Part shown: one piece after another, positions 14,457-31,606 of the stretch
Layout: the number at the start of each line of letters is the position of its first letter
Numbering within the stretch: the first letter of the stretch is position 1
Assembly: GCF_000019805.1 (NCBI RefSeq)
Contig: NC_010525.1
Location: 372,001-436,000 of the forward strand
Origin: Pyrobaculum neutrophilum V24Sta
Lineage (GTDB): Archaea > Thermoproteota > Thermoprotei > Thermoproteales > Thermoproteaceae
DNA: 64,000 nucleotides
Direction: 5' to 3'
Program-made: the position numbers and the translations under genes
Notes under the pieces: generated by a model
Told to the model about the DNA's origin: nothing
Databases searched by the model: none
What the model saw: the letters and a program-made list of their open reading frames with translations, nothing else

Positions 14457-14514
14457 GGCCCACCCCGAACCTCAAATAAAAACTCTACAGTTGGCTTAAA
14501 GGCGGTGGATATGC

Positions 14515-14979
14515 GTGGACATCCTCAGGGCGATCACGGGGGCGTTACTCCCCCGCCGCGAGCCGCCTCTGCTGAGGAAGCTCGGCGAGGGCGCCTTCCC
14601 AATATACGGAGCCGCCCTCCGCCTACTGCCCCGGATCCCCCCGGAGGCGGCTGCGGACCTCAGACTCCTAGGCGTGATAGATGGGGCGGGCCGCGCCACG
14701 CCGCTGGGGGCCCACGCCGCCAGATGCGCCTGGATAGAAGACGACGGGGCCCTCGGCGCGGTCCCCCTCGTCCTATGCCGCGTGAGAGGCTGGCAGATAG
14801 AGGAGGCCCACTACTGCCGGAGACTGCGCGCGAGGCCCGACAGGTGGCTGGCGAGGGCCGTGGAGCTCGCGGGGCCCCACCTCCTCTCCTGCCTCCCCTA
14901 CGGGGCCGACGCCGGGGCGCTGGCTGATCTCACAGCTCGGCGTATCCCGCGATCCTGGGCTTCTTCGGCCTCGCGTTGA
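14515..14979 (+). CDS. Hypothetical protein, Cys/Arg-rich
   Basis: Unrecognised 154-aa frame with a GTG start, divergent from the DUF1122-like gene. It is Leu/Ala/Arg-rich with two C-R segments around residues 87-101 and a C-L-P-Y-G near 122. Regular helix-like amphipathic spacing suggests a real soluble protein. The last 15-20 residues overlap an opposite-strand gene fragment and may be read past the natural end. The alternative frame in the same DNA is Pro/Arg-rich and looks like a shadow. Confidence 0.45.
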   Translation: MDILRAITGALLPRREPPLLRKLGEGAFPIYGAALRLLPRIPPEAAADLRLLGVIDGAGRATPLGAHAARCAWIEDDGALGAVPLVLCRVRGWQIEEAHYCRRLRARPDRWLARAVELAGPHLLSCLPYGADAGALADLTARRIPRSWASSASR

Positions 14980-24699: not shown

Positions 24700-24950
24700 T
24701 GAGCAACCACGTAGGGGGCGTCGGCGTCTCCCCTCTCGCCCCGGCGGCGTCGGCCTAAGCCGGCGCAGGTGTCGAATCCCAAAGCTCCCAAGTCGATGAC
24801 CTCCTCCCCGCCCTAGAGGGCGGGGGCCGCACTGTGGGGGTCTCGGCCGTTGCCCCTCTTCGGGGTTAATCCGTTTGACGTGGGGTAGTACGTCTCTATC
24901 CTCCTCGGCGCCGGCGTTTCGAAGCCCAGGTTTGCGGCGATGTTTCTCGC
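24700..24950 (-). ncRNA. Candidate omega RNA of the TnpB element
   Basis: In IS605-type elements a guide RNA overlaps the 3' end of tnpB and the right transposon end, with the guide taken from flanking DNA. Here the right end is marked by the hairpin 24806-24825 and a G-G-T-C-A-T-C tip at about 24798. The RNA would run from the 3' part of tnpB through this tip into the flank. Presence is inferred from family knowledge; exact ends cannot be read. Confidence 0.3.
24806..24825. repeat. Right-end hairpin of TnpB element
   Basis: Perfect 9-bp stem with AG loop directly after the tnpB stop codon. Its sequence closely matches the left hairpin and resembles the orphan end at 26957-26977. Confidence 0.75.
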
Positions 24951-26252
24951 GGCGTTTACATCGGCGTTCAGCGCAACGCCGAACTTCCTGCAGACGTACA
25001 GCCCTCTATACACTCTACCGTTTTCATGGATTTCGCCGCAGATGGAGCACGCCCTAGACGTGCTGTGTTCGTCTACAACGTACAGCTTTATCCCGTACTC
25101 CGCCAGCACCTCCGCCAGCCTCTGCACAAGCCTTCTGTACCCCCATACGCTGACCACGTACTCGCTCTGCTGATCGTGAGCTATGTCCTCTGGATAGCCG
25201 ACGTAGACCTCCGACACTCCCGATTCCCACAGCATCTCGGCGAGTCCTCTGACCGCTGTATTTCGATAATGCCTCAGCCTCTCCCTCATCTTCCAGAGAG
25301 CCCTCAGATATCTCCTATGCCACTCCGCCCACGGCAGTCCCAAGTTCCTCCTCACATCCCGCACGCTCTGGTAGAGGGCCTTCTGCCTCTTCCACCAGAA
25401 GTACTCAGCCTTCAGCGGAGTCCCCTTGATTAGGATTGCCTTATCGCTACCTTCAATTACCACGGCGAAGAGGTTGCTTATGCCGACGTCTATGAACGCT
25501 CTTTTGTTGCCTCTGGGCTGCCTTATCTGTATTCTGTCGTATGTCCCCCTCACGTACTGCCTAGGCTTGGCCGGCTTTCCAACCTCCACGGTGAGGTAGG
25601 CGAACCACCTCCCCCGCTCGTATACGATCTCCAGTCTGCCCTGCTTCCCGCTCCACTTTATCACCCCGGCGTATCTTACGCGCATGCCGAAGTCCTTAAG
25701 GACGATGTAGCCCTCGCCGTCGTTGATGGGCTCCACGTAGTATCGGTCGCTTCTGACGATAAGGCGTTTCACCCTTTTGCCGAGGAGTCTGTCCTTCCAG
25801 TACCCCGGCGGCGAGACCTTCTTCATGTGGAGCTCGCCGGCGTTCAGCTTGGCCAGGAGGGCGAAGAAGCTGAGCCACGCCTCGTTGTTCTTGTTGAGCA
25901 CCTGCCCCACGTTGACCTTCAGGACGTCTCTGTACTTCCTGTATACCTCTCTGTACGTGCCCCTTAGGTCTACGCCCTGCTTTGCGAAGAACTGTTGTCT
26001 CCTTAAGTAGTTCACCTCGTTCCACGCTTTGGCCGCGGCGTCTGCCAGCTTGTGTAGCTTCCTCTCCTGTGGAGTCGTGGGGAGGAGGCGCAGGCGGGCC
26101 GTCCGCGTGGAGGGCATCTGGGCGGGGTGTCCCCCCGCCGGGGCCATCCCACGCTTGGGTTCACCCCCCGCGCGGCGTCCGCCCCTCCCCCTCTTTTTCT
26201 CCGCTTTCTTCACCAACTCTGCCACCAAAAAATATAGATGGTTTAAAACCAT
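24813..26252 (-). CDS. tnpB: TnpB (IS605 OrfB) RNA-guided nuclease
   Basis: RuvC-type nuclease of IS605-family elements. Catalytic residues are Asp255 (F-I-D-V-G-I), Glu355 (G-Y-P-E-D) and Asp431 (N-A-D-V-N-A-A). The zinc ribbon is imperfect: Cys402, Cys405 and Cys421 remain, but the fourth position is Phe424 (C-R-K-F). The start is uncertain. ATG 26252 lies in the left hairpin and a TATA-like TTTTAAAC lies inside the first codons, so GTG 26225 or ATG 26117 are alternatives. The conserved domain begins right after the latter, and the extra N-terminal 45 residues are Lys/Arg/Gly-rich. Activity is possible but the ribbon defect is a caution. Confidence 0.85.
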   Translation of the reverse strand: MVLNHLYFLVAELVKKAEKKRGRGGRRAGGEPKRGMAPAGGHPAQMPSTRTARLRLLPTTPQERKLHKLADAAAKAWNEVNYLRRQQFFAKQGVDLRGTYREVYRKYRDVLKVNVGQVLNKNNEAWLSFFALLAKLNAGELHMKKVSPPGYWKDRLLGKRVKRLIVRSDRYYVEPINDGEGYIVLKDFGMRVRYAGVIKWSGKQGRLEIVYERGRWFAYLTVEVGKPAKPRQYVRGTYDRIQIRQPRGNKRAFIDVGISNLFAVVIEGSDKAILIKGTPLKAEYFWWKRQKALYQSVRDVRRNLGLPWAEWHRRYLRALWKMRERLRHYRNTAVRGLAEMLWESGVSEVYVGYPEDIAHDQQSEYVVSVWGYRRLVQRLAEVLAEYGIKLYVVDEHSTSRACSICGEIHENGRVYRGLYVCRKFGVALNADVNAARNIAANLGFETPAPRRIETYYPTSNGLTPKRGNGRDPHSAAPAL

Positions 26253-27316: not shown

Positions 27317-27772
27317 CTAGCGGAGCTCTTCGAGGAAGGCCGCTCCCAACCTACGGATCTCGTCTACGGCGTCCCGCATCTCCTTTTCGATTTTCTTGAA
27401 GAGGGCAGTGCCCCCGATTCTCCTGGCGGTGGCTATCACGAGGCAGTCCGGGAGCGCTATCTTTAGCCTCTTCTTGAGCTCTCCGGCGAAGATCGACGTG
27501 TGTATGTCCACATCTACAACGTCGGCCCTCCTCGTGACCCACGTCGCGAAGTTTCTAGCCTCTCCGTTGGGGTCCTCTACGCCGGCCGTGTCGGAGATCC
27601 TTGACGCGACATACAGCGTCTCGGCTAAGGTGACGGCGTTTACGTAGAGCTCTAGCTCCCCCCTTGCGGCCCTCTGGAAGATGCTTTCGACGAGGCCCCT
27701 GTAGGGGGACCTGGCAACGATGTACTCAACTAGTACGCTAGTGTCAAGTACCAGCTTCTTTCCCAAGCGCAT
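27317..27772 (-). CDS. vapC: VapC-type PIN-domain toxin
   Basis: PIN-domain ribonuclease, 151 aa. Acidic residues: Asp9 in V-L-D-T-S-V-L-V-E-Y, Glu near 51 in A-E-T-L-Y, Asp near 108 in L-P-D-C-L-V-I-A-T-A. The last acidic site is less clear; the segment A-L-F-K-K-I-E-K-E-M seen here is typical of a crenarchaeal PIN subgroup. Its ATG lies 29 bp inside the end of the AbrB-type antitoxin gene, the normal VapBC arrangement. Predicted target is RNA; specificity unknown. Confidence 0.85.
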   Translation of the reverse strand: MRLGKKLVLDTSVLVEYIVARSPYRGLVESIFQRAARGELELYVNAVTLAETLYVASRISDTAGVEDPNGEARNFATWVTRRADVVDVDIHTSIFAGELKKRLKIALPDCLVIATARRIGGTALFKKIEKEMRDAVDEIRRLGAAFLEELR

Positions 27773-28025
27773 CTAGCCTTCTGTCCCACTCCCCCTTCTC
27801 CTCCTCAACTGCTTCTTCCACCTCTTCGGGGCTTACATCCACCACCCTGGGCTTAAGCGGCCTTATCACGATAGCCCCCCCGACGACCTCCGCCACGACC
27901 TCCTCGCCCTCTTTAATCCCCGCCTCCTCTCTCAGAGCCTTGGGCAGGACCACAACCCCCTTCTTATAGACCCTGAGCACGGCCCTAGACGCCCCGCGTC
28001 TCGCCACGACAAAGTTAAACCTCAT
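27744..28025 (-). CDS. vapB: VapB-type antitoxin, AbrB/SpoVT fold
   Basis: Antitoxin of up to 93 aa. AbrB swapped-hairpin DNA-binding segment V-Y-K-K-G-V-V-V-L-P-K-A-L-R-E-E-A-G with E-G-E-E-V around residues 20-45, then an acidic C-terminal helix that would wrap the toxin. A TATA box CTTATAAAT directly abuts the ATG at 28025, too close to serve it; standard spacing points to GTG 28007, six codons in. Overlaps vapC, so co-translated and probably autorepressed through a site at the promoter. Confidence 0.82.
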   Translation of the reverse strand: MRFNFVVARRGASRAVLRVYKKGVVVLPKALREEAGIKEGEEVVAEVVGGAIVIRPLKPRVVDVSPEEVEEAVEEEKGEWDRRLDALGKEAGT

Positions 28026-28456: not shown

Positions 28457-28464
28457 GTTATAAG
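28457..28464 (+). promoter_or_regulatory. TATA box of Csx1-like gene
   Basis: GTTATAAG centred 26 nt before GTG 28484. It places the start at that codon, 24 codons after the first possible in-frame GTG (28412). Confidence 0.55.
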
Positions 28465-28483: not shown

Positions 28484-29866
28484 GTGAGGGTTCTCCTCGT
28501 CTCCGTGTGGGGGCACCCGCCGGGGTGGAGGAAGGCGAGGTTTGTGGCTGAGGGGGTGGGGGGGAGGGCATTCCGGGGGAGGGCCCACGCCGGGGTGGGG
28601 TGCCTCCCCGCGCAGGTGCTGGCTACCTACCTCGCCAAGTCGGGGCTTGAGGTGGCGACGCTGGTGGTGGGCTTCGACTCCGCCGTGGATCCCGGCGGCG
28701 GAGACCTGAGGAGGAGGGCTGTGGAGCAGTACCTCATGTGGGCGGAGGAGGTGGAGCTACAGGCCGAGGTGGTGGCGGCGGCCGGCGTGGGGGTGCACCA
28801 CGGCTGGCGCTTCGAGGGGACGCCGGAGGCTGTCTTCTCAGATGTCTTCAAGGCCGTCTGGGAGAGGTCGGAGGGGGTTTTCCAGATCTACCTCGACCTA
28901 ACCCACGCCCCTCCCCACCTCGCCGCGCCTGTCTACTACGCCGCGGCGGCCGCGGCAGCGGGTAGGGGGGCCGAGGACAAGCTGGTGGTGGTGTCCGCCG
29001 AGGCGGCCGAGGTGGAGGGGGAGCCCTGTCTCCAGGAGGCGCCGAGGCCGCCGGTGGAGGGCACGCCTGTCCTTAGGCTACTCGACTCGTCTGAGCTACA
29101 GTCGGTGGTGCAGAGGGTGAGGGAGGCGGCGTCTCTCCGGTGGCTGTCTGCGCCGGGCCGGGCCAGGTGTAGCCGCCTCGGCCGCCTCGTTTGGCTCCTC
29201 TCCAACGGCCTGGGGCCGCTGGTGTATCCAGGCGCCGTCTTCGAGGGGTGGGAGCCTTCCTTCGGACCTCCCGAGGGGCCTCCCAAGCTGGAGGAGTCAC
29301 GGCCGGTGGTGGAGGGGCGCGCCGTCCGCTACCAACACATGCGTCCCGACGCGGCTGTGGACGCCGCGCTTTATCAAGTGTGGAGGGAGCTGGGCCACCT
29401 CTTCCCCGGCGGCGCCCCCCTGGTGGACTTCCTCACGGCGGCGGCTGGGGAGCTGGAGAGGCGGGGCGCCCCGCGGGCCGCGGAGGCGCTGAGAGACGCC
29501 GCCCGCGAGGCGGCGCAACTGGAGAAGACCTTCACGGCGGTTAACGGCCCAGACTCCGCCATCTGGCCGGAGGTGTGGCACGCAGCAGAGAGGCTGGGCC
29601 CCCCGGCGGACCCCCGAGAGTACGTGGGGGAGCTCGCCGAAGCCCTCCCCCAGGCCAGGCGGGAGCTTGAGGAGGAGAGGCGGCGGGTGGCAGAGAGGGG
29701 GCCGGACCCCAGGCTGGTGAGGGACTTTCTAACGCGCGGAGGCCTCGCACCCCTCTTCATAAGGCGGATAGACCTCAGAGGAGGCAGAATAGTCAAGGTG
29801 GTGTACGACGGCAGAACGGTGGAGCGCCTCCTCAAACACCTGGAGCAGAAGGCCCCGCCCTGCTAA
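28484..29866 (+). CDS. Csx1-like CARF/HEPN protein with altered HEPN active site
   Basis: Protein of 460 aa related to the Csx1/DxTHG group of type III CRISPR ancillary effectors. The N-terminal CARF part opens with a V-R-V-L-L-V-S-V-W-G-H-P strand typical of Csx1, and D-L-T-H-A at 138-142 matches the D-x-T-H-G motif. Such CARF domains bind cyclic oligoadenylate. A helical C-terminal domain ends in R413-D-F-L-T-R-G-G-L, which lines up with the HEPN motif R-N-x-x-x-H; the catalytic His is Arg418 (codon CGC, one transition from CAC) and Asn is Asp. RNase activity is therefore doubtful. No cas genes or array nearby; a CARF ring-nuclease gene lies 1.1 kb downstream on the other strand. Confidence 0.72.
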   Translation: MRVLLVSVWGHPPGWRKARFVAEGVGGRAFRGRAHAGVGCLPAQVLATYLAKSGLEVATLVVGFDSAVDPGGGDLRRRAVEQYLMWAEEVELQAEVVAAAGVGVHHGWRFEGTPEAVFSDVFKAVWERSEGVFQIYLDLTHAPPHLAAPVYYAAAAAAAGRGAEDKLVVVSAEAAEVEGEPCLQEAPRPPVEGTPVLRLLDSSELQSVVQRVREAASLRWLSAPGRARCSRLGRLVWLLSNGLGPLVYPGAVFEGWEPSFGPPEGPPKLEESRPVVEGRAVRYQHMRPDAAVDAALYQVWRELGHLFPGGAPLVDFLTAAAGELERRGAPRAAEALRDAAREAAQLEKTFTAVNGPDSAIWPEVWHAAERLGPPADPREYVGELAEALPQARRELEEERRRVAERGPDPRLVRDFLTRGGLAPLFIRRIDLRGGRIVKVVYDGRTVERLLKHLEQKAPPC

Positions 29867-30937: not shown

Positions 30938-31606
30938 CTAGGTGTCGCCGAGGAGCTCGGCTAGGAGGGGGTTTAGGGCTCTGTCTGGGGTGAGTAGGCC
31001 TATCGCCTCTAGGTGCTGTACATCGAGGCCTAGGGCTCTGGCGAGGAGCCCCTCGTCTATCTCGCCGCGGTGGAACTTCTTCACTGCGTCTGCGACGTCG
31101 AGTGGGGTCATGGGCAGTAGGACGGCCTCTCTGAAGGTCTCGTGTATGTAGGCTACTCCGTTGGCGCCGGCGAGATATGCGGCCGCGTAGGTGGACTCTG
31201 GCTTGAAGCCGCCGGTGGCTACTACGTAGGCTAGGGCGCCCCCGGCGCGGGCGGTTCGTACGTCTCTGGCCACCTCCTTGGCCAGGTTGAGGAGGCCCTT
31301 TTCGAAGTCTTTCCCCAGCTGCTGTATAACCTTGACCTGTGCCTTGACTTGGATGAGGCGCTCGACCGCCTGGGCGAGGGCCTCGGCGGCTCTCCTCCCA
31401 TCGTCTGTGTCTGTGGCGTACAGCGCCGCCGCGGGCCTGGAGAAGAGGGCGGGCCACCTCTCTCTTAGGGAGAGGAGGGTGTTGAGCTCGGCGGAGGCCC
31501 TCCTGGGGTTCTGCACGGCGTACTCCACGATGTCCCGCGCGCCGTCTCTCTGGGCGTTGACCAGGAGGGAGATCCCGACCGTCACGGCGAAGAAGACAGG
31601 CCTCAT
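30938..31606 (-). CDS. CARF ring-nuclease-like protein (APE2256/Crn1 family)
   Basis: Protein of 222 aa from ATG 31606; the frame continues upstream but family homology starts here. Hallmarks of the APE2256 (Crn1) CARF family are V-T-V-G-I-S-L-L-V-N (8-17) with Ser13 at the position of the conserved nucleotide-binding Ser, A-E-L-N-T-L (39-44), T-G-G-F-K-P-E (131-137) and a Y-I-H-E turn (153-156). Crn1 enzymes cut cyclic tetra-adenylate and switch off type III CRISPR effectors. The C-terminal 55 residues form an extra helical domain. Its neighbour at 1.1 kb is a Csx1-like CARF protein, suggesting one cyclic-oligoadenylate circuit. Weak TATA at about 31626-31635. Confidence 0.72.
   Translation of the reverse strand: MRPVFFAVTVGISLLVNAQRDGARDIVEYAVQNPRRASAELNTLLSLRERWPALFSRPAAALYATDTDDGRRAAEALAQAVERLIQVKAQVKVIQQLGKDFEKGLLNLAKEVARDVRTARAGGALAYVVATGGFKPESTYAAAYLAGANGVAYIHETFREAVLLPMTPLDVADAVKKFHRGEIDEGLLARALGLDVQHLEAIGLLTPDRALNPLLAELLGDT

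Follow-up and report, generated by a model that had tools for sequence, protein, structure and literature searches.

Genes and features at the locus

The stretch of DNA under study (hereafter the window, 64,000 nucleotides) spans positions 372001 to 436000 of the Pyrobaculum neutrophilum V24Sta genome, a single contig of 1,769,823 bases, and carries at about 400 kb of the latter a Csx1-type CARF-HEPN gene (window 28484-29866, + strand) that appears disarmed, the HEPN and CARF motifs of its 460-residue product being lost. The reading frame extends from a GTG start at 28484 to a TAA stop at 29864-29866 and comprises 460 codons without stop or frameshift. A TTATAA element some 24 bases 5' of the GTG (28458-28463, + strand), read from the sequence, is a possible leaderless archaeal promoter; a promoter scan of the sigma-70 type, which does not cover archaeal promoters, returned nothing, and Rfam at gathering thresholds and a tRNA scan were likewise empty for the window. 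Upstream of the gene lie a VapBC-like pair consisting of a PIN domain protein and a MazE-fold antitoxin (27317-28025, - strand) and an IS605-type TnpB gene (24813-26252, - strand). Downstream, at a distance of 1.07 kb and in convergent orientation, a gene for a 222-residue Crn1-type ring nuclease is found (CARF7, Cas_APE2256; 30938-31606, - strand), both Cas10 genes of the genome being far off.

The CARF domain covers approximately residues 1-175 (28484-29008, + strand), as indicated by the match of residues 4-173 to the Pfam family Csx1_CARF PF22230 (E 1.6e-10, 42 bits versus a curated cut-off of 24.7) and by the alternation of strands and helices in a low-confidence structure model. The PADLOC profile CARF9--CARF_HEPN (PDLC01956) covers residues 1-459 over profile positions 1-458 of 459 (E 9.2e-131), and the protein combines a full-length CARF9 CARF-HEPN architecture with a Csx1-family CARF domain at its N-terminus. 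The claim of the initial annotation that the N-terminal half is a Csx1-like CARF domain with a D-x-T-H motif, here D138, T140 and H141, is thereby borne out. The structure model, built from three sequences, has a mean pLDDT of 50.6, too poor for pocket comparison, and its top Foldseek matches are Csx1 and Csm6, a result that would indicate the kind of fold and nothing further. Searched as a single sequence, the protein gave no PDB match better than E 0.29, and its family profile matched 2I71 (E 8.7e-10), Csm6 6O6S and 4EOG, entries that also head the Foldseek list. A single-protein scan of the genome contig collection found no relative, an alignment-based scan of that collection found two loci, and a scan of viral contigs found no relative.

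The protein resembles the known Csx1 enzymes (PfuCsx1 4EOG, SsoCsx1 2I71 and SisCsx1) in its length, its CARF-then-HEPN order, its D-x-T-H motif, R413 and its conserved core, but differs from them in having no HEPN histidine, no ligand G-x-N and no NSEPYP loop, and in having no Cas10 nearby. Likeness to the Crn1 enzymes Sis0811 and Sso2081 of CARF7 belongs to the neighbour at 30938-31606, which is a separate protein.

The HEPN catalytic site

The HEPN motif of the protein reads RDFLTRGGL (residues 413-421; 29720-29746, + strand) and aligns column for column with that of all eight homologues, RDFLTR standing against RNFLAH. At this place seven of the eight homologues have RN and the one of genome G005 has RH, and in every case x-x-A-H-x-G follows. 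R413 is kept, and the catalytic histidine is replaced by Arg418, whose codon is CGC (29735-29737), so that the replacement of His by Arg and of Asn by Asp noted earlier is confirmed. Other R-x4-6-H strings occur in the protein at residues 28-35 and 279-285 only, both of them off the conserved site, and the other two forward frames over the HEPN stretch contain no HEPN-like motif.

In this genome and 18 relatives, PF22230 has 31 matches, which represent 30 genes because one gene is split. Motifs were read in 30 of the 31 matching rows, one fragment row being left out, and the CARF motif was readable in 27 genes; it could not be read in two fragments and in two genes interrupted by in-frame stops. 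Among these 27 genes the HEPN motif fits the search pattern in 22, and L109 and L117 also have R-x4-H at that place. In two further genes, L105 (genome G002) and L119 (G001), R-x4-H turned up in a different frame, which suggests that the reading frame is disrupted; both have an intact CARF motif. The window gene is thus alone among the 27 readable genes of the 19 genomes in having no HEPN R-x4-H in any inspected frame. Comparison of relatives had been proposed to see whether the R...R form is fixed in Pyrobaculum; it occurs in none of the other 26 readable genes, and a form fixed throughout the genus is ruled out. The change of Asn to Asp is not telling in itself, because L103 and L115 combine Asp at this position with the catalytic His (RDFVAHAGLL). 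L047 (from the incomplete genome G269), one of five relatives that are more distant, has Gly where the HEPN Arg would stand, its HEPN His and its CARF motif being intact.

The variant H368A of TTHB144 is reported to have no RNase activity (PMC6599890). That the protein of the window would not cut RNA, as the initial annotation had proposed, is well supported by inference from the absent histidine and the off-site position of the other R-x4-6-H strings.

The CARF ligand pocket

The ligand turn reads DLTHAPPH where DLTHGxN-F/Y is expected from the alignment (residues 138-145; 28895-28918, + strand), D138, T140 and H141 being kept and G-x-N being replaced by A142, P143 and P144. Among the 27 Csx1-CARF genes that could be read in the 19 genomes, 26 have H-G-x-N, the window gene being the exception. 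Further on, the NSEPYP loop of the homologues has been reduced to the remnant SAEAAE (residues 171-176; 28994-29011, + strand), two codons having been deleted in frame. Three of eight breaks in conserved hydrophobicity (F134Q, L143P and F145H) also fall at the ligand turn. The gene scores 44.8 bits against PF22230, versus 94.9 for its syntenic counterpart in genome G004 and 112.5 for the paralogue L002 of its own genome.

Conserved contacts of SisCsx1 with cOA4 are described as Y14, Y19, S51, T154, H155, G156 and N158, and N158 is described as shaping the loop so that the amide of G156 contacts phosphate (PMC6754442). When residues are matched by the shared motif, without direct alignment to SisCsx1, the equivalents of T154 and H155 are kept, G156 corresponds to Ala142 and N158 to Pro144; NSEPYP, in turn, would correspond to the SisCsx1 loop 180-182. 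According to the same source, the SisCsx1 single mutants N158A, H155A and S51A keep detectable RNase activity, abolition taking a double mutant (PMC6754442), and for this reason loss of cA4 binding by the protein is likely, not proven. A sound CARF domain had been assumed earlier from D-x-T-H: the motif is there, but G-x-N and most of NSEPYP are gone. The accompanying expectation that the protein binds cyclic oligoadenylate finds no support in a pocket that retains only T and H out of T, H, G and N, and in which the loop is shortened and hydrophobic residues are broken.

Relatives and genomic setting

Homologues of the protein were matched in eight of 19 genomes of the family (its own included), amounting to eight besides the window gene, and the same eight were obtained among 81 genomes of the class. 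The syntenic counterpart in G004 (P. islandicum by inference) shares 54% identity with the window gene, is flanked by the same gene blocks, lies far from Cas10 and has an open frame with RNFLAH, DLTHGLN and NSEPYP intact. The paralogue L002 (G000:C1:1046059-1047453), 46% identical over residues 2-457 and adjoining Cas10 and a CRISPR array, also has intact motifs (RNFLAH, DITHGIN and NSEPYP), and a third Csx1-CARF gene of the same genome, with RNIVAH, lies at 523 kb. Since the syntenic copy of G004 and the paralogue are both intact, loss of the motifs is specific to the copy in the window and not to the genus. L002 and L004 are Csx1 genes 93% identical across two genera, L002 being Cas10-linked, and this identity suggests a recent transfer.

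Synonymous divergence between the window gene and its G004 counterpart is high (NG86 dS 2.7) when compared with the 142 gene pairs from the compared stretches, this pair included, whose median identity is 90% and whose median dS is 0.29 (from 126 positive estimates). Simple recent orthology to the G004 gene is ruled out by this difference, and one locus therefore holds old diverged alleles or xenologues.

Ten members of the close family were found, seven of them open and motif-intact and three broken, in three different ways. In the P. oguniense TE7 homologue (L036 5986-7460) a frameshift lies inside the CARF domain. In G007 an N-terminal remnant (L144, G007:C46:27430-27777, - strand), covering model positions 2-84 of 472, adjoins an open ring nuclease gene. 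More widely, frame disruption, a stop or truncation affects at least six of the 29 other Csx1-CARF genes in the 19 genomes.

Cas10 palm matches of the genome lie at 515 kb and 1,045 kb, versus 400 kb for the window gene, and association of the latter with a type III locus was not found. CRISPR arrays by both Cas10 matches are listed for P. neutrophilum in a 2012 survey (PMC3396285), whose list for this organism starts at 511,830 and gives csx1 as Tneu_0572, 1138 and 1154 and csm6 as Tneu_1144. In the open-licence literature we found no printed description of the gene at 400 kb, or of an inactivated or pseudoenzyme CARF-HEPN protein matching it. As regards P. islandicum, the survey, in what it says of the type III-A system, places neither csx1 nor csm6 beside it (PMC3396285). 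An intact and unlinked Csx1 gene (G004:C1:139632-141029, - strand; L003/L010) is the only PF22230 match in G004, and it is a candidate for the effector found missing there.

The neighbouring ring nuclease

Assignment of the neighbouring gene relies on matches to PF09651 (E 6.1e-32) and CARF7 (E 3e-63), on its best PDB match, Sis0811 (E 4.8e-12), and on alignment, Crn1 being a member of CARF7 (PMC12409355). Its lysine (in GGFK) aligns with K169 of Sis0811, and its serine (in TVGIS) was read from the family alignment; as both are kept, the gene is, judged by sequence, a CARF7/APE2256 member with the catalytic-type Lys and Ser. Relative to eight close relatives it has lost eight of 68 invariants, peers having lost 0 to 9, and it has lost none of the 14 positions invariant in 18 relatives. 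It is the only PF09651 match of its genome, and the G004 genome has none.

Of the 13 genomes matched by both families, the present one among them, 10 have a PF09651 match no more than 3 kb from one to PF22230. A broken effector, with a ring nuclease gene close by that is open or almost so, occurs in the present genome and in G007, G072 and G001 (the ring nuclease of G001 seems frameshifted near its end), both genes are interrupted in G067, and the effector near the ring nuclease reads open in G002, G006, G056, G058 and G069. The window locus is best seen as such a Csx1 plus ring-nuclease cassette in which the effector has been silenced.

Decay versus constraint in the window gene

Twenty of 72 positions invariant in the eight other homologues are lost in the window gene, two of them by deletion. 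In leave-one-out counts, losses amount to 0 to 2.7% for five other homologues and 13% for that of G004, rising to 20% in G006, a deep outgroup, and to 24% in G005, where the gene is frameshifted. Three of the counts of invariant positions come from small families. The losses fall preferentially in a functional set, chosen after the alignment had been seen, made up of D, T, H, G and N, of the five NSEPYP letters that are invariant, and of R, A and H in the HEPN motif (9/13 versus 11/59 elsewhere, Fisher p 0.0007). Counting the NSEPYP loop once leaves 5/9 (p 0.028), and when only residues published as ligand-binding or catalytic are counted, there is no enrichment (3/6 versus 17/66, p 0.34).

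With the paralogue as outgroup, the window gene has accumulated 74 unique protein changes versus 43 in the G004 copy (Tajima's test, p 0.004), and more distant outgroups give weaker results (G009, p 0.037; G006, p 0.25). Composition has shifted as well, GC1 and GC2 being 0.76 and 0.52 versus 0.61-0.64 and 0.40-0.46 in homologues, and the shifts from the G004 partner are exceeded by only 3 and 2, respectively, of the 142 gene pairs. The GARP shift relative to G004 is exceeded by one of the 142 pairs, absolute GARP content not being extreme (17 of 310 non-overlapping ORFs are higher). The GC1 and GC2 shift indicates that constraint has weakened under GC bias. Elsewhere in the window, the gene at 14500-14976 (G000:C1:386500-386976), 37.6% identical to its G004 match, also has GC1 and GC2 strongly raised in comparison with that match.

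Other features speak of constraint. Compared with intact relatives, the gene shows deletions in frame only, and a codon model rejects an omega of 1 on the branch of the window gene, both for the whole gene and for each third (2 delta lnL 20 to 31); omega on this branch is not raised, an estimate to be read with the caveat of saturated synonymous changes and non-stationary composition. Among 119 all-hydrophobic columns, 52 differ between the window gene and the G004 gene, and hydrophobicity was preserved in 44 of these, 29 to 32 being expected; between the G004 gene and the paralogue, it was preserved in all 34 columns that differ. As most of these columns remain hydrophobic, the fold was constrained for most of the branch. 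A simulation of neutral decay by substitution only gave probabilities of 0 to 0.17 over 30 settings for a frame without stop and with at least 18 lost invariants: 0 in the six settings with 0.05 changes per site, and 0.001 to 0.17 in the 24 with at least 0.1. In 21 of these 24 it did not exceed 0.08, and the peak was reached at 90% GC equilibrium. In the CARF half, changes unique to the window gene are spread evenly over codon positions (0.238, 0.220 and 0.258), a pattern whose neutral look is discounted because conditioning on agreement with GC-rich outgroups biases third positions and because the codon model disagrees. A later, short relaxed phase after long constraint fits these observations. 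Nonetheless, since an open frame, in-frame deletions and a kept hydrophobic core amount to long constraint, the protein may instead be a retained non-catalytic partner.

Discussion

We consider it probable, at roughly 0.6, that the window gene is a silenced Csx1-type cOA effector in early decay whose off-switch, the ring nuclease, has been kept. The protein, if made, would probably neither cut RNA nor respond properly to cA4. Loss of the effector may have been tolerated or even favoured, given that two other motif-intact Csx1-CARF genes are present in the genome and that an uncontrolled RNase would be toxic. The ring nuclease would be the part of the cassette still working, and could remove the cA4 produced by the two Cas10 proteins whose genes lie elsewhere on the chromosome.

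Considering that (i) the frame is open and its deletions are in frame, (ii) neutrality is rejected and the hydrophobic core is kept, (iii) functional invariants are lost preferentially, and (iv) Csm6 and Csx1 are described as acting as dimers or hexamers of dimers (PMC10897365, PMC6754442), a maintained pseudo-effector, with fold and dimer surfaces retained for pairing with the paralogue L002, which looks active, and damping it in a dominant-negative manner, or for holding some other partner, deserves attention, even if we regard it as rather unlikely. Its form is absent from all relatives, the accelerated change and the GC-driven shift in composition point to weakening constraint, and the preference for functional sites is not significant when published residues alone are counted. 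Still more tentative is the specific proposal of a ligand-blind dominant-negative protein, in which the active site and the ligand turn were lost first under selection for the fold, and which would pair with the Cas10-linked paralogue and, together with the ring nuclease, restrain the type III RNase arm; the order of losses lends it some support.

A cA4 sponge, binding the messenger and leaving RNA uncut, is improbable because the ligand pocket is damaged: T140, H141 and the CARF domain remain, and SisCsx1 with single pocket mutations still responds (PMC6754442), but here Gly and Asn of the phosphate turn have become Ala and Pro, Phe134 and Phe145 have become Gln and His, NSEPYP is lost, so that no intact pocket is found, and the adjoining ring nuclease gene could already remove cA4. 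Even less credit can be given to an active RNase with changed chemistry or ligand, for which the kept R413 and the natural occurrence of Asp in two relatives might be invoked, considering that the HEPN R-x4-H was found, in the gene's own frame or another, in each of the 26 further genes readable in the 19 genomes, and that TTHB144 H368A is reported as inactive (PMC6599890). Although one assembly was to hand, an error of sequencing or assembly is hardly conceivable with so many changes across the whole protein, an open frame and a single-contig genome. Thus, out of the three fates offered by the initial annotation for this protein, a relic fits best, a sponge is weak, and a signal relay can be entertained only as a ligand-independent protein partner.

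Silencing of the effector with retention of its off-switch is, as an event, of an ordinary class, the retirement of a toxic effector, caught at an unusually legible stage. The window gene shows one possible retirement route for cOA effectors, in which both the active site and the sensor are changed within an open frame and the ring nuclease is kept. As the PADLOC profile still matches such a protein over its full length, surveys based on profiles only would overcount active effectors.
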